Positions 6 to 17,738 of a stretch of DNA of 25,624 nucleotides are shown here, in pieces. The notes below the pieces were generated by a model. That model did not search any database, had not been told where the DNA came from, and saw only the letters and a list, made by a program, of their open reading frames with translations. The DNA is from a virus, in the IMG/VR virus record IMGVR_UViG_3300024261_000142, positions 1 through 25,624 of that record; one strand, written 5' to 3'. Both the position numbers and the translations under genes were made by a program. Position 1 is the stretch's first letter. The number at the start of each line of letters is the position of its first letter.

Positions 6-1262
6 ATGTATTTATCAGAAAACATTCAGGAGAAATGGGCCCCAGTAATGGAGCACACTGATCTTCCTGAGATTAAAGATTCATATCGAAGGGACGTAAC
101 ATTGCGTCTTTTGGAAAACCAAGAGAATTTCTTGAAAGAAGCAGCACCTACTAACCAAACTGGTGCACAGATTGATAACTGGGATCCGATTTTGATTTCC
201 CTAGTTCGTCGTGCAATGCCTCAGATGATTGCATATGATGTTACTGGTGTTCAACCAATGACTGGCCCAACGGGGTTGATCTTTGCAATGAAATCACAGT
301 ATGTACGAAGTGATGGAACAAGAACAACAGAAGCATTGTTTAATGAAGCTGAGACAGATCACAGTAATCAGGCAGCAAAAGCTGCAACTGGTCAAACGGG
401 TTTGACGGGTGCTGTTAATCCATTCACTGATCCTGCTCATAATGTTGGTGAAGGTATGGCTACTGGAACAGCTGAAGCACTCGGCGATGCTACTGGTAAT
501 TCATTTGCAGAGATGGCATTCAGTATCGACAAAATTGCGGTAACTGCAAAATCTCGAGCACTGAAAGCTGAATACTCTACGGAGTTGGCACAGGACTTGA
601 AAGCAGTTCACGGTTTGGATGCTGAAACAGAATTGGCAAATATTCTTTCTACGGAAATCTTGCAAGAGATTAACCGTGAAGTTATTCGTACAATTTACTT
701 AATTGCCAAAGATGGTGCACAGCTCAATACAGCAGTGCCTGGTACATTTAATCTTGATACTGATTCAAACGGCCGATGGTCTGTTGAGAAGTTCAAAGGT
801 TTGATGTTCCAAATCGAGCGTGACCGAAATGAAATCGGACACGAAACACGACGCGGTAAAGGTAACTTTATGATCTGTTCTGCTGACGTTGCATCTGCAA
901 TGTCTATGGCAGGTATGTTGGAGTCAGGTCATGCTCTTTCTACAGATGATACAATGTCAACCTATGCTGGTACAATGAACGGCATGAAGGTTTATGTTGA
1001 TCCTTATTATACTTCTGGTGTTGGACAGTTCTATACACTGGGATATAAAGGTACATCTCCTTACGATGCTGGCATGTTCTATTGTCCTTATGTTCCGTTG
1101 CAGATGGTTCGTGCAATGGGAGAGAACACCTTCCAACCAAAAATCGGATTTAAAACCCGATATGGTATGGTTGCTAATCCGTTTGTTGGAAATGGCAGTG
1201 GTGCACTTACTGCTGACGGTAATCAGTATTACAGAAAAGTTAATGTAACAAACTTGATGTAA
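6..1262 (+). CDS. 23: Major capsid protein (T4 gp23-like)
   Basis: Forms the hexameric lattice of the phage head. The 418-residue product aligns with T4 gp23 nearly end to end: an N-terminal LPEI segment, the FLKE-A junction at residues 42-46 matching the T4 FLTE-A site cut by the prohead protease gp21, the central run around AKSRALKAEYSTELAQDL, the following AVHGLDAE, EINREVIR, and the C-terminal GFKTRYGM. It is about 100 residues shorter than T4 gp23; the missing part lies mostly after the cleavage site, where T4 has its insertion domain. The first ATG fits the T4 N-terminus, but its ribosome binding site lies off the window. A strong terminator follows, so it is probably the last gene of a late capsid operon. 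Confidence 0.96.
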   Translation: MYLSENIQEKWAPVMEHTDLPEIKDSYRRDVTLRLLENQENFLKEAAPTNQTGAQIDNWDPILISLVRRAMPQMIAYDVTGVQPMTGPTGLIFAMKSQYVRSDGTRTTEALFNEAETDHSNQAAKAATGQTGLTGAVNPFTDPAHNVGEGMATGTAEALGDATGNSFAEMAFSIDKIAVTAKSRALKAEYSTELAQDLKAVHGLDAETELANILSTEILQEINREVIRTIYLIAKDGAQLNTAVPGTFNLDTDSNGRWSVEKFKGLMFQIERDRNEIGHETRRGKGNFMICSADVASAMSMAGMLESGHALSTDDTMSTYAGTMNGMKVYVDPYYTSGVGQFYTLGYKGTSPYDAGMFYCPYVPLQMVRAMGENTFQPKIGFKTRYGMVANPFVGNGSGALTADGNQYYRKVNVTNLM

Positions 1263-3118: not shown

Positions 3119-3556
3119 ATGAAAATTAATGATATTAACGAAATGATTGACAAGGACTCTGCTTTCTTGAAAGAGGAATGTAATATTGATATTGCATCCC
3201 TTCGCGTGCCAGAGTTATGCGGAAAATACCATCAGCTAATTTACCAAGAAAAACTTTCTTTAGAGTATTTCAAAGTTGAATTTAAAGTTCTCAAAAGAGA
3301 TAGATGGTTATATTACACAGGAAAAGCTGATCCCGAAGTATACGAAAAAGAACCATTCAATTTAAATATACTAAAAGCAGATATAGATAAATTCTTAGAT
3401 GCCGATGGTGCTTTGAATGTTTGTTTGTTGAAAGTAAAAGTACAGGAAGAAAAACTAAACCTCTTAACAGAACAAGTTAAGTCTATTATGAGTTTATCGT
3501 TTAATATTGGTAATGCTATTAAATGGAAGAAATTTCTTAACGGTGAGCTTGGATGA
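3119..3556 (+). CDS. uvsY: UvsY recombination mediator
   Basis: Loads the UvsX recombinase onto gp32-coated single-stranded DNA during phage recombination-dependent replication. The 145-residue product matches T4 UvsY (137 residues) in size and pattern: a charged N-terminal helix, K-x-LKRDRWLYYTGKADPEVY (about residues 57-74) corresponding to the T4 KARLDYYSGRGD segment, then a C-terminal helical region ending ...NIGNAIKWKKFLNGE, comparable to the T4 C-terminal AIKSRGFAIKHIQDM. The start is set directly by the promoter (probably leaderless). The stop overlaps the uvsW start by four bases (ATGA). T4 also has the two genes as neighbours, but with uvsW upstream. Confidence 0.85.
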   Translation: MKINDINEMIDKDSAFLKEECNIDIASLRVPELCGKYHQLIYQEKLSLEYFKVEFKVLKRDRWLYYTGKADPEVYEKEPFNLNILKADIDKFLDADGALNVCLLKVKVQEEKLNLLTEQVKSIMSLSFNIGNAIKWKKFLNGELG

Positions 3557-5040
3557 TTGCAGTAGGTAAACTAAATGAATCATACTTGCAGGTTTCCTGC
3601 GAGAGACATATTGCTTATGAACTGAATGAATATTTTTCATTTAAAGTTCCGAACTTTCAGTTTCATCCGAAGTTTAAAGCAAAGATGTGGGATGGAAAAA
3701 TACGCCTGTTTAATATTCAAACAGGGCAGATGTATCTTGGACTCTATCCATATTTAAAAGATTGGGCAGAGAAACATTCTTACAAATTACAATCTGACAT
3801 AGTTGAGGCCAGAAAACTTTCTGGCATGGGTGTTAATGAGATTAAAGAGTTCTTTGATTCTCTTAAATTGCATTGTAAGAATAAACCAATTATTCCTAGA
3901 GAATATCAGATTGCATCATTTATTCAGTGTGTAAAACAAGAGAGAGCTCTACTGTTATCGCCAACTTCATCGGGTAAGAGTTTAGTTATTTATTCGTTGA
4001 TTAGATGGCATCAACAGTTTATAGAGAATGATAAGATATTAATATTGGTTCCTACTACAAATCTAGTAACACAGATGTATAATGATTTTAAAGATTATTC
4101 GTCTGAACTACCGGATTGGAATGCTGAAGATCAATGCCACATGATATATTCTGGTAAAGAAAAAGAAGCTGAGAAGCAGATATATATTAGTACATGGCAG
4201 TCATTGTTTAGACTTGGTGCTCCATACTTCAAGAAATTTGGTATGGTTATTGGTGATGAAGCTCATCTATGTAATGCACAGAGTCTTAAAGGTATACTAG
4301 AGAAAATGACTACCTGTAAGTATAGGTTCGGCACTACTGGAACCATAACAGATTCTAAGACAAATAAACTGGTATTAGAAGGACTATTCGGTAAGACATA
4401 TCAAGCAATAACATCAAAAGAATTGATGGATGATAAGCATATATCTGATTTGAAGATTGAATGCTTGATGTTAAAATATAATGATACTGAAAAGAAACAA
4501 TTAAAAACAGCAACATATCCAGAAGAGATTGACTTTATAGTTTCAAGTAAAAAGAGAAATGAGTTTATATGTGAGTTAGCATTAGCTAGGAAAGGTAATG
4601 TTTTAATTCTATTTAATTATGTAGAGAAACATGGCAAGGTATTAGAGAGAATATTAAGGTCTAAATTAAAAACAGATAGAAATATTTTCTTTATAGCTGG
4701 TGAAACATCGGTGGAAGATAGAGAGAAAATTCGGCAGGTAACAGAAGTTGAAAACTCTATCATCGTAGCATCGTCTGGTGTTTTATCAACTGGTGTTAAT
4801 ATTAAGAATCTTCAAACCTTGATATTTTCACACCCCTACAAAGGGAAGATAAGAAATCTTCAATCCATTGGCAGGGTTTTGAGGTTGGATGATAAAAGTA
4901 ACAAGGCTATATTATTTGATATAGTTGATGATTTATCATGGAAGAAGCACCAGAATTACGGTATTAAACATTGGAAGGAAAGAGTTAAAACCTATACTGG
5001 TGAAAAGTTTGATTATAACATTAGAGAAATAACTTTATAA
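3553..5040 (+). CDS. uvsW: UvsW ATP-dependent DNA helicase
   Basis: An SF2 helicase that unwinds branched DNA and R-loops, and in T4 switches replication from origin to recombination mode. The 495-residue product has the UvsW N-terminal domain (NFQFHPKFKAKMWDGKIRLF, about 34-53), a Q-like motif (PREYQ, 115-119), Walker A SPTSSGKS (136-143), DEAH (235-238), the motif III-type GTTGT, and the C-terminal RecA-like lobe with SSGVLSTGVNIKNL and QSIGRVLR (motif VI). Length is close to T4 UvsW (about 500). It is translationally coupled to uvsY through an ATGA overlap and shares its promoter. Confidence 0.95.
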   Translation: MIAVGKLNESYLQVSCERHIAYELNEYFSFKVPNFQFHPKFKAKMWDGKIRLFNIQTGQMYLGLYPYLKDWAEKHSYKLQSDIVEARKLSGMGVNEIKEFFDSLKLHCKNKPIIPREYQIASFIQCVKQERALLLSPTSSGKSLVIYSLIRWHQQFIENDKILILVPTTNLVTQMYNDFKDYSSELPDWNAEDQCHMIYSGKEKEAEKQIYISTWQSLFRLGAPYFKKFGMVIGDEAHLCNAQSLKGILEKMTTCKYRFGTTGTITDSKTNKLVLEGLFGKTYQAITSKELMDDKHISDLKIECLMLKYNDTEKKQLKTATYPEEIDFIVSSKKRNEFICELALARKGNVLILFNYVEKHGKVLERILRSKLKTDRNIFFIAGETSVEDREKIRQVTEVENSIIVASSGVLSTGVNIKNLQTLIFSHPYKGKIRNLQSIGRVLRLDDKSNKAILFDIVDDLSWKKHQNYGIKHWKERVKTYTGEKFDYNIREITL

Positions 5041-5373: not shown

Positions 5374-5799
5374 ATGAATATTAACGTGGTAAATAGAAGT
5401 GAAAACCCATTACCAAAGTATGCAAAACATGGTGATGCTGGGATGGATATATGTGCAGCTGTCGATGATTTTATTGCACCGTTTAATTGGAAAGCAATTC
5501 ATACTGGATTGTTTGTAGAAATTCCAGAAGGATATGAAATACAAATAAGGTCTAGGTCTGGACTTGCGTTTAAATATGGTATTTCAGTATTGAACAGCCC
5601 AGGCACTATTGATTCTGGTTATCGTGGTGAAATACAAGTTATTCTGAAAAATAGTGACCATCGAAGATATGAAATTAAAAAAGGTGATCGTATAGCACAA
5701 ATGGTAGTTTCAGAATTTACTAAAGCTTCTCTTACAGAAGTCGCAGAACTTTCTGATACTGAACGCGGCGAAGGTGGATTAGGGAGTACGGGAAAATGA
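5374..5799 (+). CDS. dut: dUTPase (trimeric)
   Basis: Hydrolyses dUTP to dUMP and PPi, keeping uracil out of phage DNA and feeding thymidylate synthesis. All five trimeric dUTPase motifs are present in order: AGMDI (22-26), RSRSGLA (59-65), GTIDSGYRGEI (77-87, with catalytic D80), GDRIAQMV (104-111) and the P-loop-like RGEGGLGSTG (131-140). The 141-residue length is typical of a single-domain enzyme. The ribosome binding site is GAGGA before the ATG. The stop overlaps the gp55 start (ATGA), so nucleotide metabolism is co-expressed with the late sigma factor. Confidence 0.97.
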   Translation: MNINVVNRSENPLPKYAKHGDAGMDICAAVDDFIAPFNWKAIHTGLFVEIPEGYEIQIRSRSGLAFKYGISVLNSPGTIDSGYRGEIQVILKNSDHRRYEIKKGDRIAQMVVSEFTKASLTEVAELSDTERGEGGLGSTGK

Positions 5800-6317
5800 C
5801 TGATAAAAGAAAACACTATGTAGACAATGATATGTTTTTCGAAGCGATGAAAAAATGGAAGCAGAAGGTTTTGGATAATCGTGAAGTTGATGAAAATGAT
5901 CCCCCTACTACAGAATATATGGGTGAATGTTTTTTGAAGATTTGTGAACATCTAGCTATGCGTCCTAATTTTATTAATTACACATTCCGCGATGACTTGA
6001 TTTCTGATGGCATTGAGAATTGTTTGTTGTATGCTCACAATTTCAATCCAGAGAAATCTAAGAATCCTTTTTCATATTTTACACAGATTATTCATCATGC
6101 GTATGTAAGGAGAATTGTCAAAGAAAGAAAGTTGATGCATATTAAATACCTTCTAGTTGAACGCGAAGGTATATTAAATGAAATTCATACAGCTGGAGAG
6201 GATAATAAGAAAATTACTAAAGAGTGGGTAGATTACCTTAGAACCCATGAGAAATATGCAGTAAATCCAACTAAGAAGAAGAAGCCTAAACCCAATTTAG
6301 AGCTCTATTTTAGGTAG
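5796..6317 (+). CDS. 55: Late-transcription sigma factor gp55
   Basis: A divergent sigma-70-family factor that directs host RNA polymerase to late promoters with the -10 element TATAAATA. The 173-residue product (T4: 185) has the gp55 core: NFINYTFRDDLISDGIENC followed by AHNFNPEKSKNPFSYFTQI and HHAYVRRIVKE, the region-2-like core-binding and promoter-melting segment. The final residues NLELYFR resemble the hydrophobic-acidic sliding-clamp-binding tail that lets T4 gp55 be activated by gp45, which is also encoded here. The start overlaps the dut stop. Candidate target octamers occur at 2419, 2435 (minus strand), 21736 and 22976. Confidence 0.93.
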   Translation: MTDKRKHYVDNDMFFEAMKKWKQKVLDNREVDENDPPTTEYMGECFLKICEHLAMRPNFINYTFRDDLISDGIENCLLYAHNFNPEKSKNPFSYFTQIIHHAYVRRIVKERKLMHIKYLLVEREGILNEIHTAGEDNKKITKEWVDYLRTHEKYAVNPTKKKKPKPNLELYFR

Positions 6318-6384: not shown

Positions 6385-6612
6385 ATGGAATATGATGTAT
6401 TAGGTTTCGAGGAGTGTTCCAGATGTAGGCAGTTTGAACCAGATCATTTTTTTAAGAATTGTGGATTTACAGTATCAAGATTAGATGATGGCACAGTACT
6501 ACAAGAATTTGAATGTAGTAGATGTAATTTTAAATGGGATAAAAGGTATGAAAATAGCGTTGATAACCGATCAGCATTTTGGGGGAAAACAGGACAGTCA
6601 GAACTTTTCTAA
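6385..6612 (+). CDS. Small zinc-ribbon protein (75 residues)
   Basis: The 75-residue product carries C11-x-x-C14 and a second CxxC in EFECSRCNFKW, the pattern of a rubredoxin/TFIIS-type zinc ribbon that could bind DNA or RNA polymerase. It is the first gene behind its own promoter, with AAGGA 8-12 bases before the ATG. Its last 65 bases overlap gene 47 in another frame. Family not recognised. Confidence 0.7.
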   Translation: MEYDVLGFEECSRCRQFEPDHFFKNCGFTVSRLDDGTVLQEFECSRCNFKWDKRYENSVDNRSAFWGKTGQSELF

Positions 6613-7615
6613 TTATATTGAGACATTTTATCGGGAACAGTTTTTTCCTTATTTGTCTGAAAATAAAATAGATACTGTTATTGACTTAGGCGATACGTTT
6701 GATAGACGGAAGTTTGTAAACTTTAATACACTCAATCAAGTGCGTCAGTTTTATTTTGATGTATTCTTAGAGCATAATATTACATTGCATTCTATTGTCG
6801 GTAATCATTCTACCTATTACAGAAATACCAATAGTGTTAATAGCTCTGATTTACTTTACGGACATTATGAAAACGTCAGCACATACCCATCACCTCAAAC
6901 TATTCATGTTGGCGATACTGATATTGATTTGATTCCTTGGATTAATGTAGAGAACTATGATGAGACTATGAGTTTCATTAAAGATTCCAAATCACAAATA
7001 GCACTCGGCCATTTAGAAATTAATGGGTTTGCAATGCATAAAGGATATAATAATGAAGAGGGTTTAGATGTTAAAACCTTTGGTGGATATGAAGTAGTAT
7101 GCTCTGGTCATTATCATCATAAGTCCAGCAAAGGAAATATTCATTATCTTGGTGCTCCTTATGAAATCACTTGGAATGATTATGATGACCCTAGAGGTTT
7201 TCATATATTGGATACAGAAACCAGAGAGCTAGAATATATTCGTAACAGATTCAGGTTGTTTGAGAAAATATATTATGATGACAGCAATACAGATTATTCA
7301 AAGATAGATACTGGTTATTACAAGAGTAAGATTGTCAAGCTGATTGTAGAGAATAAAGAAAATCTTCCACAGTTTGAAGATTTTGTTGATAGACTATACA
7401 AGTCAGATTTAACTGATTTGACTATACTTGAAGATTTATCAGAATACACTATGAGATATAATGAAGACGATGAAGCTGATGTAGAGGTTGGTAATACATC
7501 AGCATTTCTTGAAGAGTATGTTGACGGTATGAAAGTAGAAGAAGAGAAGCCAAAGATTAAAAAGTTGCTACAAGTTATTTATGATGAAGCCCTTAATGTG
7601 GATACTACTGAATGA
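6548..7615 (+). CDS. 47: Recombination nuclease subunit gp47 (SbcD/Mre11-like)
   Basis: The metallophosphoesterase subunit of the gp46/gp47 complex, which resects DNA ends for recombination and degrades host DNA. In the 355-residue product the Mre11 motifs are D8-x-H10 (ITDQHFGG), GDTFD (48-52), GNHS (85-88), GHLE (154-157) and GHYH (187-190). I place the start at 6548 because the protein then begins MKIALITDQH, as the family does; the frame is open 21 codons further upstream. The start lies inside the preceding zinc-ribbon gene, so translational coupling is likely. The stop overlaps the gene 46 start (ATGA). Confidence 0.93.
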   Translation: MKIALITDQHFGGKQDSQNFSNYIETFYREQFFPYLSENKIDTVIDLGDTFDRRKFVNFNTLNQVRQFYFDVFLEHNITLHSIVGNHSTYYRNTNSVNSSDLLYGHYENVSTYPSPQTIHVGDTDIDLIPWINVENYDETMSFIKDSKSQIALGHLEINGFAMHKGYNNEEGLDVKTFGGYEVVCSGHYHHKSSKGNIHYLGAPYEITWNDYDDPRGFHILDTETRELEYIRNRFRLFEKIYYDDSNTDYSKIDTGYYKSKIVKLIVENKENLPQFEDFVDRLYKSDLTDLTILEDLSEYTMRYNEDDEADVEVGNTSAFLEEYVDGMKVEEEKPKIKKLLQVIYDEALNVDTTE

Positions 7616-9312
7616 TAAAGTTAAAAACTGTTAGATGGAAAAACTTTCTTGCAACTGGTAATACATTTTTAGAAGTACAACTTGATAAAGAACCAATGAC
7701 ATTGATTGTTGGTAAGAACGGTGCTGGTAAGTCAACATTGATTGATGCCATCACCTTTTCTTTATTCGGGAAACCTTTTAAGAAAATCAATAAAGGCCAG
7801 TTGATGAATACTGTTAATGAGAAAGAACTTGTTACAGAGATTGAGTTTTCTATAGGTCAGATAGAATGGAAAATACGCAGAGGTATTAAACCAGCTCTAT
7901 TTGAAATATATAGTAATGGTAATATCATTAATCAGGATGCTAAGAGTACTGATTACCAGAAGTATCTTGAAGATAAAGTTTTGAAACTAAACTTCAAATC
8001 CTTTACACAGATTGTTGTATTGGGTTCAGCATCGTTTGTTCCATTCATGCAGTTGTCAGCTAATGACCGAAGAGTTATTATTGAGGATATTCTTGATATT
8101 GGTATTTTCTCTGTTATGAAGAATTTGCTCAAAGACCGTTCAGCTTCATTGAAAGAAGAAATGACTGAACTAGAATATTCTATTAAATTAATTCAAGAGA
8201 AAATCAATTTGCATCAAAAACATCTTGAAGAGATGCAAGCAAAAACTGATACTAAACGAAAATCAGATTTAGATAAGATTGAAGAAACCCAAAAAGAAAT
8301 TATAAAACTCAATGAAGAAGTAGAGAAACACCAAGACCTTGTAATGTCATTAATGAGTTCTATTGCAGATGAAAAAACTAGCTATACTAAGAGTAGGGAA
8401 ATGGATAAGTACCGTTCTCAAATAAATAAGAACCTGAAGAAACTCCATAAGGACAAAAGATTCTTTGAGAATAATGAAAACTGTCCTACTTGTGAACAGG
8501 ATATTAATGAGGAGTTTAAAAAGAATAAGCTCGGAGATTTATCAGACGATTTAGATGAAATGGATGATGGCCTGGTTAAACTTGAGAGTGAGATTAATAA
8601 GGTATGCTTGAGACTTGAAGAGATTTCAGCTTGTAATAAAAAGATACAAGCTGAAGAAATTGAAATCAGATCAAAAAACACTTATATCAAATCACATAAT
8701 AAATTTATTACACATTTGAATGAAGAGTTAAACAAAAAGGATCAAGAGGTTGATGTTGTCAAACATGATTTTCTAACAAAGGAATTAGTGGAAACGAAAG
8801 CTACTAGGATGCAGTATGTAGAGCAGAAAAAATATTATGATATTCTTGGGACTATATTAAATGATAAGGGTATTAAGACACGAATTGTACGCAAGTATTT
8901 ACCTGTCATAAATAATCATGTAAATATGTATCTAAAGGATATGGATTTCTTTGTGAACTTTCAGCTGGATGAGAACTTCCAAGAAACCATTAAGAGTAGG
9001 CACAGAGATGATTTCTCTTACTACTCATTTTCAGAGGGTGAGAAAAAGAGAATTGATATTGCATTGTTGTTGACATGGAGATACATTGCAGCCATGCGTA
9101 ATTCTGTAAACGTCAACCTGTTAATACTTGATGAAGTATTCGATGCAAGTTTAGATCAAGCAGGTGTTGATGATTTGATGAAATTGTTTCACCTGTTAGA
9201 TAAGACAAACTTGTTTATCATTTCACATAAACTTGATGTGCTTGACGATAAGTTTCCAGCTAAAATTACAGTAGAGAAAGTTAAAAACTTTACAACTATG
9301 GAATCCAGATGA
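7612..9312 (+). CDS. 46: Recombination nuclease subunit gp46 (SbcC/Rad50-like)
   Basis: The SMC-like ATPase partner of gp47. The 566-residue product has Walker A GKNGAGKS (34-41), a long charged coiled coil with a central zinc-hook C291-P-T-C294, a second coil, the ABC signature SEGEKKR (474-480) and Walker B LLILDE (D507, E508) followed by the D-loop. Length is close to T4 gp46 (560). It is coupled to gene 47 by a four-base overlap and its own stop overlaps the next gene by four bases. Confidence 0.96.
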   Translation: MIKLKTVRWKNFLATGNTFLEVQLDKEPMTLIVGKNGAGKSTLIDAITFSLFGKPFKKINKGQLMNTVNEKELVTEIEFSIGQIEWKIRRGIKPALFEIYSNGNIINQDAKSTDYQKYLEDKVLKLNFKSFTQIVVLGSASFVPFMQLSANDRRVIIEDILDIGIFSVMKNLLKDRSASLKEEMTELEYSIKLIQEKINLHQKHLEEMQAKTDTKRKSDLDKIEETQKEIIKLNEEVEKHQDLVMSLMSSIADEKTSYTKSREMDKYRSQINKNLKKLHKDKRFFENNENCPTCEQDINEEFKKNKLGDLSDDLDEMDDGLVKLESEINKVCLRLEEISACNKKIQAEEIEIRSKNTYIKSHNKFITHLNEELNKKDQEVDVVKHDFLTKELVETKATRMQYVEQKKYYDILGTILNDKGIKTRIVRKYLPVINNHVNMYLKDMDFFVNFQLDENFQETIKSRHRDDFSYYSFSEGEKKRIDIALLLTWRYIAAMRNSVNVNLLILDEVFDASLDQAGVDDLMKLFHLLDKTNLFIISHKLDVLDDKFPAKITVEKVKNFTTMESR

Positions 9313-9494
9313 AGCTCTTAGTTATTATGTGGATATTAACCTTATCCGATTTATCAGCTGAGAAACGTGTATATGAGGGTTCAATAGACGAATGTTTATT
9401 AAACTCTATACTATTTAATCAACAATATAAAGGAATAAAATATGCTGGTTGTTATACAGAGGTTAGACAATACAATTTTGTTCCGAGGGATTAA
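9309..9494 (+). CDS. Small exported protein with two cysteines
   Basis: A 61-residue protein with a short signal peptide (hydrophobic residues 2-16, small-residue cleavage site near SA-EKR at 16-17). The mature part has two cysteines (C29, C48) that could form a periplasmic disulfide, and aromatic residues toward the C-terminus. The start overlaps the gene 46 stop (ATGA), so it is translated with the nuclease operon although it acts outside the cytoplasm. No known family recognised. Confidence 0.65.
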   Translation: MKLLVIMWILTLSDLSAEKRVYEGSIDECLLNSILFNQQYKGIKYAGCYTEVRQYNFVPRD

Positions 9495-9496
9495 AA

Positions 9497-9709
9497 ATGC
9501 CATTATATAGTTATCATTGTGTGAAATGTAATGAGGTTTATGAAAATATAAGAAGTATAGAACAAAGAGATATCAAGCTAGTTTGTCCTATTTGTAATGA
9601 TAAGTGTGAACGCATTATAGATTTATCATCCTTTCAATTGAAAGGTGATGGCTGGTACAAAGATGGATATAGTAGTAAGAAACCTAAACCTAAAGAGGAA
9701 GAAAAATGA
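9497..9709 (+). CDS. FmdB-type zinc-ribbon protein
   Basis: The protein begins MPLYSYHCVKC, the hallmark of the FmdB/CxxC_CxxC_SSSS family, with C8-x-x-C11 and C30-x-x-C33 forming one zinc ribbon, then a glycine/tryptophan patch (KGDGWYKDGY) and a lysine/glutamate-rich tail. The 70-residue length is usual. Members are annotated as putative regulatory proteins without a defined mechanism. Its stop overlaps the proline dehydrogenase start by four bases (ATGA), so the two are co-translated. Confidence 0.85.
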   Translation: MPLYSYHCVKCNEVYENIRSIEQRDIKLVCPICNDKCERIIDLSSFQLKGDGWYKDGYSSKKPKPKEEEK

Positions 9710-10611
9710 AATTGTTCTATCCGTTAGCTAAACGATTTATAGCTGGATACGATTTTGATTCTGCAAAACCAGTTGTAGCACAACTTTTAAGTGAGGGTTA
9801 TAAAGTATCAATAGACTACTTGGGTGAACTTAGTACGGAACGTGATGATTGTCTAAATGCCTTTATACAATATTGTGATATTATTGATTACTATACAAGT
9901 ACGCCATGGAAACAGGATGGTATAGAATTGTCAATTAAACCTTCACAGTTGGGTTTAAGATTTGACAAAGAATACTGTTATGACCTTATGAGTAAACTTG
10001 CATATAAAGCAAATGTCTTTTGTATGAATATTCGTTTGGATATGGAAGACAGCTCTTTGATACAAGATACAATTGATTTGTGTTTATATTTGAATAAGAA
10101 ATATAAAAATGTAGGTGTAGCAATTCAGACAAATATGTTTAGGACAAAAAGTGATATAGCTAAACTGATGGTTGAAAATATATCAATCAGATTAGTTAAA
10201 GGTGCTTATAAAGAGGATATACTTAAGGCATATCAAAACCAAGAACAAATAAGAAAACTATTCATACAATATGCATTTACGATTTTGTCTGATAGGTGTA
10301 GAACCTATTATCACATGGGAGATAAAAACAAAGTTATTTCAGCTATAGGAACACATGATGAGGATATACTAAACGAAATTACTAAAAATATGGGTGCTTT
10401 CAAAATAAAAAAAGAGGATTGTGACTTTGAATTCCTTTATGGCATCCGAAGAGATTTAAGTAAAAAAATGAAAGATGAGGATTATAGGGTTAGACTATAT
10501 GTTCCGTTTGGAACTAAATGGCTTCCATATACTCTAAGACGATTGAGAGAATATAAAAATTTAATGTTTGTAGCAAAGAATATTTTTAAGGAATGGAAGG
10601 GTAATAAATGA
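9706..10611 (+). CDS. Proline dehydrogenase (phage-encoded)
   Basis: An FAD-dependent enzyme oxidising L-proline to pyrroline-5-carboxylate and passing electrons to quinone. The 301-residue product matches monofunctional bacterial PRODH in length and in the barrel motifs: RFIAGYD (10-16), GYKVSIDYLGE (31-41), LSIKPSQLG (75-83, with K78), IRLDMED (109-115), VAIQTNMF (138-145), IRLVKGAYKE (161-170), IGTHDED (214-220), FEFLYGIR (241-248), LYVPFG (264-269) and YTLRRLRE (275-282), whose paired arginines bind the substrate carboxylate. It looks intact. No P5C dehydrogenase gene is nearby, so the product would be handled by the host. Role in infection (energy, osmolyte use or redox signalling) is inference. 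Confidence 0.88.
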   Translation: MKLFYPLAKRFIAGYDFDSAKPVVAQLLSEGYKVSIDYLGELSTERDDCLNAFIQYCDIIDYYTSTPWKQDGIELSIKPSQLGLRFDKEYCYDLMSKLAYKANVFCMNIRLDMEDSSLIQDTIDLCLYLNKKYKNVGVAIQTNMFRTKSDIAKLMVENISIRLVKGAYKEDILKAYQNQEQIRKLFIQYAFTILSDRCRTYYHMGDKNKVISAIGTHDEDILNEITKNMGAFKIKKEDCDFEFLYGIRRDLSKKMKDEDYRVRLYVPFGTKWLPYTLRRLREYKNLMFVAKNIFKEWKGNK

Positions 10612-10781
10612 AATGGACTTTGAGAAAGATGCTTTGGATTACTCTAGCATTTAGTTGTGCTATAATGTTTATAGCTGACCCTTATGGTTGGCTTCCAGAA
10701 CCAGATATGTCTCCCTGTAAAAAAGAAGATACAAGAGCTAGATGTACAGGAAGGATAACTTTTTTTTGGCAAACACCTTGA
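10608..10781 (+). CDS. Small membrane or exported protein (57 residues)
   Basis: Starts inside the proline dehydrogenase stop (ATGA overlap). The 57-residue product has a basic N-terminus, a hydrophobic segment (about residues 9-23, WITLAFSCAIMFIA), then a Pro/Cys-containing external part with two cysteines (C37, C46) and a C-terminal TFFWQTP. It may be a signal-anchored or secreted peptide. Its TGA stop lies within the -35 hexamer of the downstream Hsp20 promoter. Function unknown; being next to a membrane-associated dehydrogenase is suggestive only. Confidence 0.6.
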   Translation: MKWTLRKMLWITLAFSCAIMFIADPYGWLPEPDMSPCKKEDTRARCTGRITFFWQTP

Positions 10782-10805
10782 CATTTCAATTTTAGATGTT
10801 ATTAT
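10778..10805 (+). promoter_or_regulatory. Sigma-70-type promoter of hsp20
   Basis: A consensus -35 TTGACA (10778-10783, again preceded by CC) and TATTAT (10800-10805) 16 bp downstream, with alternative TATA-rich -10s just after it. The hsp20 ATG at 10845 has AAGGAG (10833-10838) upstream. Confidence 0.7.
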
Positions 10806-10844: not shown

Positions 10845-11279
10845 ATGACTTATTCACCACTTTTTACACAATCAGACTTTCCAATAGGAAACCCACTTCC
10901 ATCATGGATGGACTTTGACGCATTTAACAAGTATATATATAGTAATGAACCCGTAACAAAAACAAGGGTTAGCCGATCTGGTAATGCTTACCGATGGGAT
11001 GAAGATAATAATGAATATAAACTTGATATTGTAATGCCCGGCTTGAAAAAGGAAGATATCGAACTTACATTTAAGAAGGATATTTTGACCATCAAATGCA
11101 ACAAAGAAATTCCTAAAAAGGATCAAGGATTCTATGGTGTAGAATCTGAACAATCTTTTAAGAATTTTCCTCAAGCAGTTGATGCTGATAAAATCACAGC
11201 TGAAATGGAAGATGGTATTCTGTCTATCGTTCTGCCAAAACGTGAAGCCGATAAACCTAAGCAGATCAATATCACATAA
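10845..11279 (+). CDS. hsp20: Small heat shock protein Hsp20
   Basis: An ATP-independent holdase chaperone of the alpha-crystallin family. The 144-residue product has a variable N-terminal arm, an alpha-crystallin domain (about 49-131) starting YRWDEDNNEYKLDIVMPG, the conserved A-x-x-x-x-G-I-L motif at AEMEDGIL (119-126), and the C-terminal IxI oligomerisation motif INI (141-143). Small Hsp20 genes are common in T4-like phages of marine bacteria and may assist folding of phage proteins. It has its own strong promoter. Confidence 0.95.
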   Translation: MTYSPLFTQSDFPIGNPLPSWMDFDAFNKYIYSNEPVTKTRVSRSGNAYRWDEDNNEYKLDIVMPGLKKEDIELTFKKDILTIKCNKEIPKKDQGFYGVESEQSFKNFPQAVDADKITAEMEDGILSIVLPKREADKPKQINIT

Positions 11280-14181: not shown

Positions 14182-15522
14182 ATGAAAAAAGTAGATATGA
14201 CAATCAGTGATTTAAGAAGTACTTTTAAAGCAGAAATTGATAAACTTTTTGGTGATGATACCTTTACTAAAGAACAAGCTAAAGATGCTGTTGTTTCTTC
14301 TGGATTAGATAAAGGAAAATGGCAGGGATTAAGTCAGCTTCTCAAAAAATACTGTTCTACTGATGAAAAAGATGTTTATACTTTCAAAGATAGATGCGGA
14401 AGTCAATCAGAAGTTAAAGTAAAAAAAGAAGTTGCAAAAAAAGAAGTTAAGAAAACAATCAAAAAAGATTGGGATATCATTTCCGAAAAAAAAGAAGTTT
14501 TAGTAAATGAATTTGATAATTCAAGTACTTCATCTTTGCGTTCTCCAAGCGATTGGGTGCGTGAAGAAAAAGAAAAAGAAGTATCTACTGTAGAATTTAA
14601 AGTTAAGACTGCTACCAATACGGTTGTAAATCTTATACCTAAAAAAGACCCACAATATGTAGCATGGGGTCATTTCAAAGATATTAAAACGATTCTGGAA
14701 AGCAAAGTTTTCTATCCGATTTTTGTAACTGGATTATCAGGAAACGGAAAAACTTCTATGATTCGTGAAGTTTGTGCTAAATTGAAGCGTGACATGGTAA
14801 GGGTTAATATTACCGTTGAAACTGATGAAGATGATTTGTTGGGTGGCTTTCGTTTAGTAAATGGTGAAACCGTTTGGCAGGATGGCCCACTGGTTGTCGC
14901 AATGAAAACTGGTGCGATTGCATTGATTGATGAAGTTGACTTAGCTTCTCATAAAATCATGTGTCTTCAACCTATAATGGAAGGACAACCAATTTATCTG
15001 AAAAAGATTAATGAGGTTGTTTATCCTGCTGCCGGTTTCAATATTGTTGCAACTGCTAACACTAAGGGAAAAGGTTCTTCTGATGGACGTTTCATGGGAA
15101 CTAATATTTTGAATGAAGCATTTCTTGATAGGTTCTCAGCAACCTTTTATCAAGAATATCCTTCAACCTCTTTTGAGGAAAAGATTCTCAAAAAGCAGTT
15201 TGCAAAGTATGAGATCAGCGAAGATGACTTTGTTTCTAAATTAGTCAAGTGGGCAGACGTTATCCGCCGTTCCTTCAAAGAAGGTGCTGTTGACGATATC
15301 GTTACAACCAGACGATTAATTGATATCACGAAAACTTTTTCAATCTTTAATAATAAGATGAAAGCCATCTCATTATGTTTGGAAAGGTTTGACGATGAAA
15401 CAAGGGATTCTTTTGCTGACCTTTATACTAAGGTTGATGCTGGAGCATCCTTTGAGGATATTTCTGCGGAAGCAGGAGTTACTATTGAAGAAGAAACTAA
15501 CGAAGATGAAAATGTATACTAA
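14182..15522 (+). CDS. AAA+ ATPase, MoxR/CobS-like
   Basis: The 446-residue product has an N-terminal helical domain (1-60), a lysine-rich linker containing RSPSDWVREEK (120-130), and an AAA+ module with Walker A GLSGNGKT (184-191), Walker B ALIDEVD (D250, E251), an ATANT sensor-1 segment and LDRFSAT as in MoxR/CobS proteins. Genes of this type in T4-like cyanophages are usually annotated cobS, but no other cobalamin gene is seen here. It follows the VWA gene, its expected partner, and has an almost identical promoter. A hexameric ATPase loading or driving the VWA-metalloprotease is the simplest reading (inference). The stop overlaps the next start by one base (TAATG). Confidence 0.88.
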   Translation: MKKVDMTISDLRSTFKAEIDKLFGDDTFTKEQAKDAVVSSGLDKGKWQGLSQLLKKYCSTDEKDVYTFKDRCGSQSEVKVKKEVAKKEVKKTIKKDWDIISEKKEVLVNEFDNSSTSSLRSPSDWVREEKEKEVSTVEFKVKTATNTVVNLIPKKDPQYVAWGHFKDIKTILESKVFYPIFVTGLSGNGKTSMIREVCAKLKRDMVRVNITVETDEDDLLGGFRLVNGETVWQDGPLVVAMKTGAIALIDEVDLASHKIMCLQPIMEGQPIYLKKINEVVYPAAGFNIVATANTKGKGSSDGRFMGTNILNEAFLDRFSATFYQEYPSTSFEEKILKKQFAKYEISEDDFVSKLVKWADVIRRSFKEGAVDDIVTTRRLIDITKTFSIFNNKMKAISLCLERFDDETRDSFADLYTKVDAGASFEDISAEAGVTIEEETNEDENVY

Positions 15523-15902
15523 TGAAAAAGATAATATACATATTAATATTCTTATGTCACAATCCTGTATATGCAGATGAAAAACAGGATTGTGACATTA
15601 TGAAATATGAAACTGATAGTATTACTCTAGGTTTTAAGGCAGGTGGCCTCTTTTGGGGTGTTGGCCCAGAGGTCACATTCGGCAGTCAATCGGGTGTTGT
15701 TTGGAGAGATAATCTTCAATACATGGTTGCTGAATATCAAGAATTATGTTCCCGATATAATACGGGCAGGGTTTCTAAAGTAGAATATGATAAAGAGATT
15801 CAGCTCATTATTCAAAGAAGTAGAAATTTTACTTTTAAAATGAATGAAGCATTTAGAAGAAAAAAACAATTAATGTTTGATGAAATGGAGATTTTACAAT
15901 GA
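15522..15902 (+). CDS. Exported hypothetical protein (126 residues)
   Basis: Begins with a clear signal peptide (MKKIIYILIFL..., cleavage likely at YA-DEK, 18-19) and is translationally coupled to the AAA+ gene (TAATG). The mature protein has two cysteines (C24, C76), a glycine-rich GFKAGGLFWGVGPEVTFG segment (37-54) that may form beta strands, and a C-terminal charged helix. No family recognised; it is the first of three envelope genes. A perfect 15-bp inverted repeat spans codons 11-26, so translation or RNA stability here is probably structured. Confidence 0.75.
   Translation: MKKIIYILIFLCHNPVYADEKQDCDIMKYETDSITLGFKAGGLFWGVGPEVTFGSQSGVVWRDNLQYMVAEYQELCSRYNTGRVSKVEYDKEIQLIIQRSRNFTFKMNEAFRRKKQLMFDEMEILQ
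15554..15598 (+). repeat. Perfect 15-bp inverted repeat inside the envelope gene start
   Basis: Arms 15554-15568 and 15584-15598 are exact reverse complements around a 15-nt spacer, beginning 32 bases after the ATG. This would form a very stable RNA hairpin in the signal-peptide coding region, or could be a DNA dyad bound by a dimeric protein. Confidence 0.92.
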
Positions 15903-16510
15903 AAAATTATATTATGATTACTATGTTGTTTTTGAGTACTGCTTGTTCAAGTATACCTACTATTCCAGATGCACCTAAAGCACTTGCAGAATATAAAGCA
16001 CCTGATTGGGTATTGAGAGGTGGCGGTGCATTTACTGATGCAAGAGGTAAAGCATTCTATGGTGTTGGATCTGCAACTGGTATTAAAAACTATTCACTAC
16101 AAAGAACGGTTGCAGATGACCGTGCTCGTGGTGATTTGGCAAAAGTGTTTGAGTTCTATATCAGTTCTTTGACTAAGGATTATCAAGCACATACTACTGC
16201 TGGAAGTTTTGCAAATTCAACCGAAGAGCAGAATGCAGAAGCTGCATTGAAAGTGGTTGTATCACAAACCCTGCGAGGAGTTGTGATTGTTGACCATTTT
16301 GAAATTCCAGAACGCCGTGAATTTCTATCTCTTGCACGATTGGATTATGATGCATTTCAGGGAAACGTAGAAGCCAATGAGTCTTTTCAAGAGTTGCCTG
16401 AAAAGTTGCAAGTGGATATTAAAGAACGTGCAGAAAAACTCCATGATGAAATGGAAGAGGAAGCACGAAAATTGGCAAATGGTGATTGTTTTGGTTCATC
16501 AGACTGTTAA
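15899..16510 (+). CDS. LPP20-like lipoprotein
   Basis: The 203-residue product has a lipoprotein signal ending STAC (C16), followed by Ser-Ser rather than Asp, which favours outer-membrane sorting. The mature part resembles the LPP20/FlgP-type domain: PDWVLRGGGAF..., FYGVGSA..., then an alanine/arginine-rich helix (VADDRARGDLAKVFEFY) and a final strand (REFLSLARLDYDAF). An amphipathic C-terminal helix ends CFGSSDC. The start overlaps the preceding stop (ATGA). Bacterial relatives are flagellar or outer-membrane-associated; in a phage it may modify the host surface (inference). Paralogous to the next gene. Confidence 0.75.
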   Translation: MKNYIMITMLFLSTACSSIPTIPDAPKALAEYKAPDWVLRGGGAFTDARGKAFYGVGSATGIKNYSLQRTVADDRARGDLAKVFEFYISSLTKDYQAHTTAGSFANSTEEQNAEAALKVVVSQTLRGVVIVDHFEIPERREFLSLARLDYDAFQGNVEANESFQELPEKLQVDIKERAEKLHDEMEEEARKLANGDCFGSSDC

Positions 16511-16529
16511 TCTATAATAGGAATTGATT

Positions 16530-17738
16530 ATGCGATATTTACTTACATTTATGGTGTTTTTTGTTGTCTCAATTGTTGAAGCATCCCCAACGCCGGATTG
16601 GGTGTTGGGAAGGGGTCATTCATTATACGATCCTTCTCAATACCTAATGGGTGTTGGATACTCTAAGAATAATACTGTTTCTGCAAGTGAATCTGCTAGA
16701 GCAGAATTGATTAAGAGTATAAGAGTAAAAGTTAATTCCACTATTAAAGATTATCATAGCACTGATAAATCATTCTCCGAGGCTTCTATTAGTTCGGAGA
16801 GTGATTTTCTCTTAGAAGGTTCGCAGATTAAAGATGGGTGGTATGATGAAGATAAAGAAATCTTTTATTCTTTAGTGGTTATTAAACGCCAGTTCGTCTT
16901 AGATACTTTATCTGAAATGATTAACAATATTGTTGCAAAGAATAATTTGACTCTAAGACAAGCAGATACATTTTATAACAATGGTAAAATTATTAAAGCA
17001 CTGGTATATTACTATGATGGGTATGTTGAAAGTTCTAAACTTCTTCCTTACATTCAGACCTATAAAAGTGTTATAATAGAACCTAATAGTAAAGATATAG
17101 AAACTAACTACAATCTTTTATTTAAGGAGAAAATCCAAAACATTGTTGAGCATATCCAATTGGAAAAAGTAAGCAGTTCGGTTGATGATAAAAACATTTC
17201 TTTAAATGTTAGAGCTACCTTTCAGGGTAGAGGGATTGATAATTTTCCAGTTAAATTTTATAGTGTTTATAAGCATCATGTTGATAGGGTTATCTGTAAG
17301 AGTAATGGTTGCGAAACTAAAGCTTCTATAGAAAAAGTTTTAAATGATAATAACAATATATTCATTAAAGCTATTCCTGATATTAAAACATTTGAAAAAT
17401 ATTTTACTTACAATCTAGGGAATAAACTTTTTAGTAATTTTGATTTAATAAATGTATCCTTTAAAGATACTATACAAAATCAACAAAAGGTAGAGCGTGA
17501 AAAGCGTTATAAATACTTAAATGAGGAGTTAGATAATAGACAGCAGAGGGAATCTGATAGAATGGCAGACCTTATGGAAAGGGAAATTAATTCTATGAGA
17601 GCAAGTGGCTGTGAAGTTGGTTGTCGTGTTCCGCATATTCCTGCTTATAGGAATAGAAGAAATGGAAGTATAGATTTTAATATAGGCTTTGGTAAAGGTA
17701 GAAATCGAGGAAATATAAACATTAATAAAGGATGGTGA
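16530..17738 (+). CDS. Exported protein with LPP20-like domain
   Basis: I choose the ATG at 16530 (402 residues), eight bases after AGGA, over the in-frame TTG two codons earlier. The product has a signal peptide (MRYLLTFMVFFVVSIVEA-SP), then an LPP20-like domain whose PDWVLGRGHSLYD, YLMGVGYS, ESARAELIKSI and FYSLVVIKR match the same positions in the preceding lipoprotein. A long middle region of alpha/beta character follows, then a charged helix (about 320-360) and a Gly/Arg/Asn-rich C-terminus. It is periplasmic or outer-membrane associated. Function unknown. Confidence 0.72.
   Translation: MRYLLTFMVFFVVSIVEASPTPDWVLGRGHSLYDPSQYLMGVGYSKNNTVSASESARAELIKSIRVKVNSTIKDYHSTDKSFSEASISSESDFLLEGSQIKDGWYDEDKEIFYSLVVIKRQFVLDTLSEMINNIVAKNNLTLRQADTFYNNGKIIKALVYYYDGYVESSKLLPYIQTYKSVIIEPNSKDIETNYNLLFKEKIQNIVEHIQLEKVSSSVDDKNISLNVRATFQGRGIDNFPVKFYSVYKHHVDRVICKSNGCETKASIEKVLNDNNNIFIKAIPDIKTFEKYFTYNLGNKLFSNFDLINVSFKDTIQNQQKVEREKRYKYLNEELDNRQQRESDRMADLMEREINSMRASGCEVGCRVPHIPAYRNRRNGSIDFNIGFGKGRNRGNININKGW

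Follow-up and report, generated by a model that had tools for sequence, protein, structure and literature searches.

A proline dehydrogenase of a phage-specific clade in the nuclease operon of a T4-like virus

We found that the window, that is, the whole stretch of 25,624 nucleotides analysed here (a 25.6-kb virus record), carries a gene for proline dehydrogenase (PRODH) among the core genes of a T4-like phage. Its product is probably a working monofunctional L-proline dehydrogenase that depends on FAD and belongs to a phage-specific clade; it would feed electrons to host quinones and sustain respiration and ATP supply. As a metabolic gene lying among phage core genes and kept by selection, it is best read as an auxiliary metabolic gene (AMG). 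The kind of enzyme is known; what appears to be new is that phages have a clade of their own, that it is retained across a lineage and that two phage lineages share it. A group of uncultured T4-like viruses thus probably draws on host proline to power infection, a strategy for which the open literature searched gave no phage precedent.

The PRODH gene starts with ATG downstream of a purine-rich AGAGGA and encodes 301 amino acids with no internal stops. Pro_dh (PF01619) was its sole Pfam match (E 3.9e-26; 92.7 bits, with the cut-off at 27) and covered positions 5-269 of the 278 in the profile, and the pocket residues were kept in 22 of 22 phage copies, in agreement with the preliminary description of a full-length gene with all PRODH barrel motifs. 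The top NCBIfam model was ProDh_Thermus (NF045947) at 162 bits, below its equivalog cut-off of 500 bits, which places it in that superfamily but not in this equivalog. The top PDB sequence match was Thermus thermophilus PRODH (2ekg, E 3.6e-33); the T. thermophilus and Deinococcus radiodurans PRODHs came first and PutA after them, and the search of PHROGs gave no convincing family. Every strong sequence and structure match was to PRODH rather than to another TIM-barrel family. These results strongly support the identification of the gene as a bona fide monofunctional PRODH.

The AlphaFold2 (AF2) model, built from an input of 53 sequences, had a pLDDT of 89.7 and a pTM of 0.88, with less confidence in the last ~20 residues; an earlier run on three sequences was poorer (pLDDT 75.5). 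The model is a PRODH-type barrel with the C-terminal helix alpha8, and VIA-align matched it to 4h6r (Z 36.9), 2g37 (Z 36.1) and 2ekg (Z 35.9), followed by PutA domains (Z about 29-32). The residues of the FAD and proline pocket are in place in this predicted structure. Neither of the two outcomes that the preliminary description had named as refuting, a model without such a pocket or best matches to a different TIM-barrel family, was therefore observed. An active-site alignment of 53 sequences, 22 from phages and 31 cellular, showed that K78, D112, Q141, R162, K165, A167, Y168, T216, H217, D218, L244, Y265, Y275, R278, R279, E282 and the gate residue E41 were invariant in all 22 phage PRODHs, and the same pocket and gate positions were near-invariant in the 31 cellular sequences. 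The flavin-binding residues among them are T216, H217, K165, D218, Q141 and R162, the last two corresponding to Gln404 and Arg431 in Ec numbering. In T. thermophilus PRODH (TtPRODH), the flavin is bound by Thr226, His227, Lys187 and Asp228 (PMC5335563). The substrate residues are R278, R279, K78, Y265, Y275, L244 and the gate E41, and those of SmPutA are Arg488, Arg489, Lys265, Tyr473, Tyr485, Leu449 and the gate Glu225 (PMC12398946). The arginines at 278-279, proposed earlier as the carboxylate-binding pair, do align with that pair in TtPRODH (R288/R289) and SmPutA (Arg488/Arg489), and both were invariant in 53 of 53 sequences. Tyr265 is the equivalent of EcPutA Y540, a tyrosine that favours proline over hydroxyproline according to a 2009 study as cited in PMC5786444. 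Of the consistent differences near the pocket, Asn143 was the clearest: it was present in 22 of 22 phage PRODHs and is Tyr in most cellular ones, suggesting that kinetics or substrate might differ.

The phage enzyme is also short at its N terminus, starting about where helix alphaC of TtPRODH starts (model residue 1 aligns with Tt 25). TtPRODH lacking helices A and B (deltaAB) is highly active and the deltaABC form barely active, which is accounted for by a hydrophobic patch between alphaC and alpha8 (PMC6017737). This patch is kept in the window PRODH (A8, F11 and I12, corresponding to Tt V32, Y35 and V36), and the phage PRODHs have hydrophobic residues at all three positions. By analogy, the phage PRODHs may be natural counterparts of the active short form of TtPRODH.

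Features of the window and of related records
Feature	Record	Position	Strand	Evidence
T4-like major head protein (gp23), lineage marker	Window	6..1262	+	phrog_138
UvsW helicase, lineage marker	Window	3553..5040	+	Pfam UvsW_N, phrog_16
gp55-like late sigma factor	Window	5796..6317	+	phrog_234 E 3e-53
gp47 / SbcD-like nuclease subunit	Window	6485..7615	+	phrog_100 E 1e-107
gp46 / SbcC-like nuclease subunit	Window	7612..9312	+	phrog_77 E 1e-165
61-aa ORF between gp46 and FmdB	Window	9309..9494	+	Conserved in relatives (cluster 26)
FmdB-type zinc-ribbon protein, 70 aa	Window	9497..9709	+	Pfam Zn_ribbon_8, phrog_1076
PRODH, 301 aa, phage-clade, short N-terminal form	Window	9706..10611	+	Pfam/NCBIfam/PDB matches, AF2 model, active-site residues, dN/dS
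Membrane-type peptide, 57 aa	Window	10608..10781	+	ORF; no family match
Sigma-70-like promoter match, 11 of 12, after PRODH unit, before Hsp20	Window	10778..10805	+	Pattern match only
Hsp20 small heat-shock protein, right flank of PRODH site	Window	10845..11279	+	Pfam HSP20 E 4e-17
Three consecutive ORFs (126, 203, 404 aa)	Window	15522-17738		Signal-peptide or lipoprotein-like starts
Membrane protein, 321-328 aa	L003	7531-8517		Sub-threshold PHO4 phosphate-transporter match
Membrane protein, 321-328 aa	L006	11617-12603
Membrane protein, 321-328 aa	L010	14504-15469
Membrane protein, 321-328 aa	L132	4140-5108		No family
Periplasmic binding protein, urea/amino-acid type, 428 aa	L160	10041-11327		Peripla_BP_5 E 5e-168
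Three-histidine-box protein, 265-278 aa	L035	1101-1937	-	No Pfam match
Three-histidine-box protein, 265-278 aa	L010	5407-6243	-	No Pfam match
Three-histidine-box protein, 265-278 aa	L030	5370-6167	-	No Pfam match
MotA/TolQ/ExbB-like membrane protein	L004	5285-6432		Best NCBIfam ZorA/MotP, weak
MotA/TolQ/ExbB-like membrane protein	L015	11006-12616		Best NCBIfam ZorA/MotP, weak

The source genome is that of a T4-like phage, as had been proposed, since it carries the structural and replication core genes of one: the phrog_138 head protein, UvsW, the late sigma factor, a tail tube protein, a clamp loader and a RegA-type translation repressor. Its gp23 is 64% identical to that of Methylophilales phage Melnitz and 63% identical to that of Pelagibacter phage HTVC008M. 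The PRODH gene does sit in the nuclease operon, with the gp47 and gp46 (SbcD/SbcC-like) genes, and both overlaps in the preliminary description are real: the stop of the FmdB-type gene overlaps the PRODH start by 4 nt (ATGA), and the small membrane peptide downstream begins inside the PRODH stop, again by 4 nt (ATGA). This peptide was considered as a membrane anchor or partner of PRODH and rejected, because L155 and L160, two relatives without PRODH, have a homologue of it directly behind FmdB. The position of PRODH in the gp47-gp46-FmdB transcription unit suggests that it is expressed with the replication and recombination genes. The T4 late promoter TATAAATA occurs eight times in the window, not clearly above chance and never near PRODH, and the search for promoters of the PRODH unit found nothing beyond the sigma-70-like match downstream of it, before Hsp20. 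Elsewhere in the window, the first two of the three consecutive ORFs with signal-peptide or lipoprotein-like starts are conserved in L006, L010 and L030.

The distribution of PRODH in the parent T4-like lineage was examined with gp47 as the lineage marker, counting those loci that reach from gp55 to Hsp20 or to the peptidase and whose gp47 is at least 67% identical. PRODH was present in 18 of the 22 fully spanning loci, at the gp55-gp47 site in 12 and at the FmdB-Hsp20 site in six, and never at both at once. Among 26 gp47 relatives at no more than 50% identity, many of them with short loci, none had PRODH. In the loci that lack PRODH the flanks are unchanged, and FmdB is followed by a homologue of the 57-aa peptide or other genes stand there instead. 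Absence from some members indicates that the gene is not essential, and the two alternative sites together with retention in 18 of 22 loci mark PRODH as cargo of this lineage that is mobile and yet strongly retained. One gene at the FmdB-Hsp20 site of the PRODH-less L160 encodes a periplasmic binding protein, a nutrient-uptake gene within a T4-like phage, and a multi-pass, transporter-like membrane protein (321-328 aa) stands beside PRODH or replaces it; its L003 copy gave no more than the sub-threshold PHO4 match and its L132 copy matched no family.

Viral contigs at first yielded three relatives of the window PRODH, in L002 (100% identical), L003 (83%) and L004 (51-53%); the L002 protein is identical to that of the window, yet the two genomes are not. 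An alignment-based scan found 33 PRODH loci. In an IQ-TREE tree of 31 phage PRODHs and about 50 cellular ones, all 31 phage enzymes formed one clade (support 100/100) on a long stem branch of 0.72. Cellular genomes were scanned with two peptide patterns, and the closest cellular PRODHs among the matches listed were 33-39% identical to the phage clade. In eight pairs of phage PRODHs, dN/dS was 0.07-0.31, well below 1, which indicates purifying selection on the gene. Purifying selection and lineage-wide retention argue against a relic, consistent with the earlier impression that the gene looks functional. One phage-type contig with a clade PRODH (L035) sits in a Marinimicrobia metagenome-assembled genome (MAG); the PRODH of the MAG itself is unrelated and a binning error is possible, and no host was assigned on this basis. 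Several PRODH-bearing T4-like contigs (L035, L010 and L030) also encode a protein with three histidine boxes that resembles a fatty-acid desaturase by eye.

The clade extends beyond T4-like phages. A second lineage comprised about 15 records of up to 178 kb (L004, L015, L017-L026, L029, L033 and L034), whose full-length PRODHs fall in the same phage clade as that of the window. We found no match to the T4 head protein in these records, and the terminase that they encode shows no more than a distant relationship to those of SPbeta-like phages and Microcystis phage MaeS. Judged from these comparisons, this is a second, large-phage lineage unrelated to the T4-like one, yet it carries the same PRODH clade. 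The window PRODH thus belongs to a whole phage clade common to two unrelated phage lineages, which goes beyond the preliminary description. Two second-lineage records (L004 and L015) also encode a MotA/TolQ/ExbB-like protein; close by lies a second protein with a membrane helix at its N terminus, and the pair looks like an ion-channel unit of two genes.

Nine second-lineage records contain a gene of the ornithine cyclodeaminase/mu-crystallin (OCD) family, which overlaps PRODH in four different phages, lying upstream in L017 and L021 and downstream in L022 and L019 (identical to L033). The OCD-family gene occurred in 9 of 15 PRODH-bearing records against 3 of 18 PRODH-less relatives (Fisher p 0.014, and 0.027 after a duplicate was removed), and as the samples are not random the association with PRODH is suggestive only. 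Eight PRODH-bearing second-lineage records encode a full-length aldehyde dehydrogenase. This conserved enzyme (L205-L212) is widespread in the second lineage, about 75-80% identical among relatives and 48.5% identical to one in the 595-kb uncultured phage record LR756511. An Arg just before its catalytic Cys, also present in the GSAL dehydrogenase of BjPutA (PMC5786444), hints at an acidic semialdehyde substrate. This enzyme was considered as a partner P5C dehydrogenase and rejected, as its scores single out no substrate. Nor is it tied to PRODH, being present in 18 related PRODH-less records; these were chosen from outside the PRODH set and prove only that it occurs alone. Neither the OCD-family gene nor the aldehyde dehydrogenase was found in the T4-like lineage of the window, which is represented by fragments only.

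PRODH oxidizes L-proline with FAD to delta-1-pyrroline-5-carboxylate (P5C) and FADH2, which is reoxidized by quinone, and a single PRODH gene is enough to bring electrons from proline to the quinone pool without a phage P5C dehydrogenase. We propose that the phage PRODH would be made together with the gp47/gp46 recombination nuclease genes and would convert host proline to P5C, with two electrons passing to the membrane quinones of the host. Respiration and ATP supply would thereby continue during phage replication, and P5C would be left to the host, to be turned into glutamate by P5C dehydrogenase or back into proline by P5C reductase (ProC). We infer quinone as the acceptor by analogy with the PRODH family, and proline is presumably the true substrate; the timing of expression and the benefit to the phage are likewise presumed.

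It is possible, if doubtful, that PRODH serves carbon and nitrogen supply or redox balance instead of energy. P5C-derived glutamate would serve nucleotide and amino-acid synthesis, or a proline-P5C cycle of PRODH with host ProC, as known from eukaryotic cells, would move NADPH electrons to quinone. The other nutrient-type genes at the FmdB-Hsp20 site, namely the periplasmic binding protein of L160 and the transporter-like protein of L003, L006, L010 and L132, fit a nutrient-acquisition locus. Neither a P5C dehydrogenase nor another member of its aldehyde dehydrogenase superfamily turned up in the window or among the records of its T4-like relatives, all of them fragments; this speaks against the reading and is also a point against the energy role proposed above. 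The NADPH drain of the cycle would moreover compete with nucleotide reduction.

It is improbable that the phage PRODHs now act on a different but related cyclic amino acid, perhaps one made by the OCD-family enzyme encoded next to PRODH in the second lineage. The clade-specific Asn143, the long stem branch and the OCD-PRODH gene overlaps point that way, and the OCD family spans pyrroline-2-carboxylate reductases, lysine cyclodeaminases, alanine dehydrogenases and ornithine cyclodeaminase; but every mapped substrate-contact residue is of the proline-enzyme type, and ornithine cyclodeaminase already yields proline, so that no shift is needed. There is a negligible chance that the gene is explained by contamination with bacterial DNA, as a relic or by an error of annotation: such errors do occur in deposited phage records, but many contigs from different samples have this PRODH flanked by T4-like core genes, and it shares 4-nt overlaps with its neighbours, has a dN/dS well below 1 and belongs to a monophyletic phage clade.

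We tentatively suggest that a proline-to-respiration module could have evolved within phages themselves, its PRODH clade distant from the cellular enzymes among the matches listed and circulating between unrelated tailed-phage lineages, in one of which coupling to the OCD-family enzyme would lead from ornithine through proline to P5C and reduced quinone. If so, phages would encode a way to feed electrons into host respiration without NADH. A phage-owned amino-acid-to-quinone dehydrogenase would give a phage that infects a heterotrophic bacterium a simple means of sustaining respiration, and retention in most of one T4-like lineage together with recurrence in an unrelated lineage makes the idea directly testable.

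Among annotated phage records, seven matched PRODH, none of them T4-like by name, in line with the earlier remark that PRODH is not a standard AMG of T4-like phages. Two were rejected as precedents. The PRODH of Microcystis phage MaAM05 (MW495066.1, L126) has bioD, murJ, pcnB and acdA as neighbours, and that of Staphylococcus phage UPMK_1 (MG543995.1, L128) has riboflavin genes nearby and groups with Bacillaceae proteins. Both records contain stretches of bacterial-type genes, likely contamination; this bacterial look concerns these two of the seven records, and another, MT836077, carries no annotation. Real phage PRODHs, which match no PHROG family, have been overlooked, while certain deposited phage records bear a PRODH label that misleads. 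A search of the open-access literature found no report of a phage PRODH.

Most well-known phage metabolic genes belong to photosynthesis, nucleotide or phosphate metabolism, and the AMGs of marine T4-like phages are host-type metabolic genes that lie between core genes, occur in some lineages only and are under selection. The phage PRODH shares all three features with these AMGs, and differs in not having been reported as a phage gene in the open-access literature. Virus-encoded PRODHs or PRODH-like folds are found in giant viruses: haptophyte giant viruses are reported to encode PRODH (PMC11953307), and the only strong structural matches in BFVD were a Mimiviridae ChoanoV1 protein (A0A5B8HWA9) and one shorter protein. 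These are viruses of eukaryotes, however, and the ChoanoV1 protein is only 18% identical to the window PRODH; giant-virus PRODHs were not among the sequences placed in the tree. The bifunctional PutA (PRODH and P5C dehydrogenase) has the same PRODH-domain fold and pocket (Z about 29-32), whereas the phage enzyme is without the P5C dehydrogenase and DNA-binding domains and its sequence similarity to PutA is much weaker. The Thermus/Deinococcus PRODHs (TtPRODH 2g37/2ekg and DrPRODH 4h6r) have the same barrel, which superposes with an rmsd of 1.4 A over about 270 residues (Z 36-37), and likewise the alphaC/alpha8 patch and the pocket for FAD and proline. Unlike them, the phage PRODH, about 28-32% identical, is without the alphaA/alphaB arm and has Asn143, and some phage members have an extra loop near residues 199-210.
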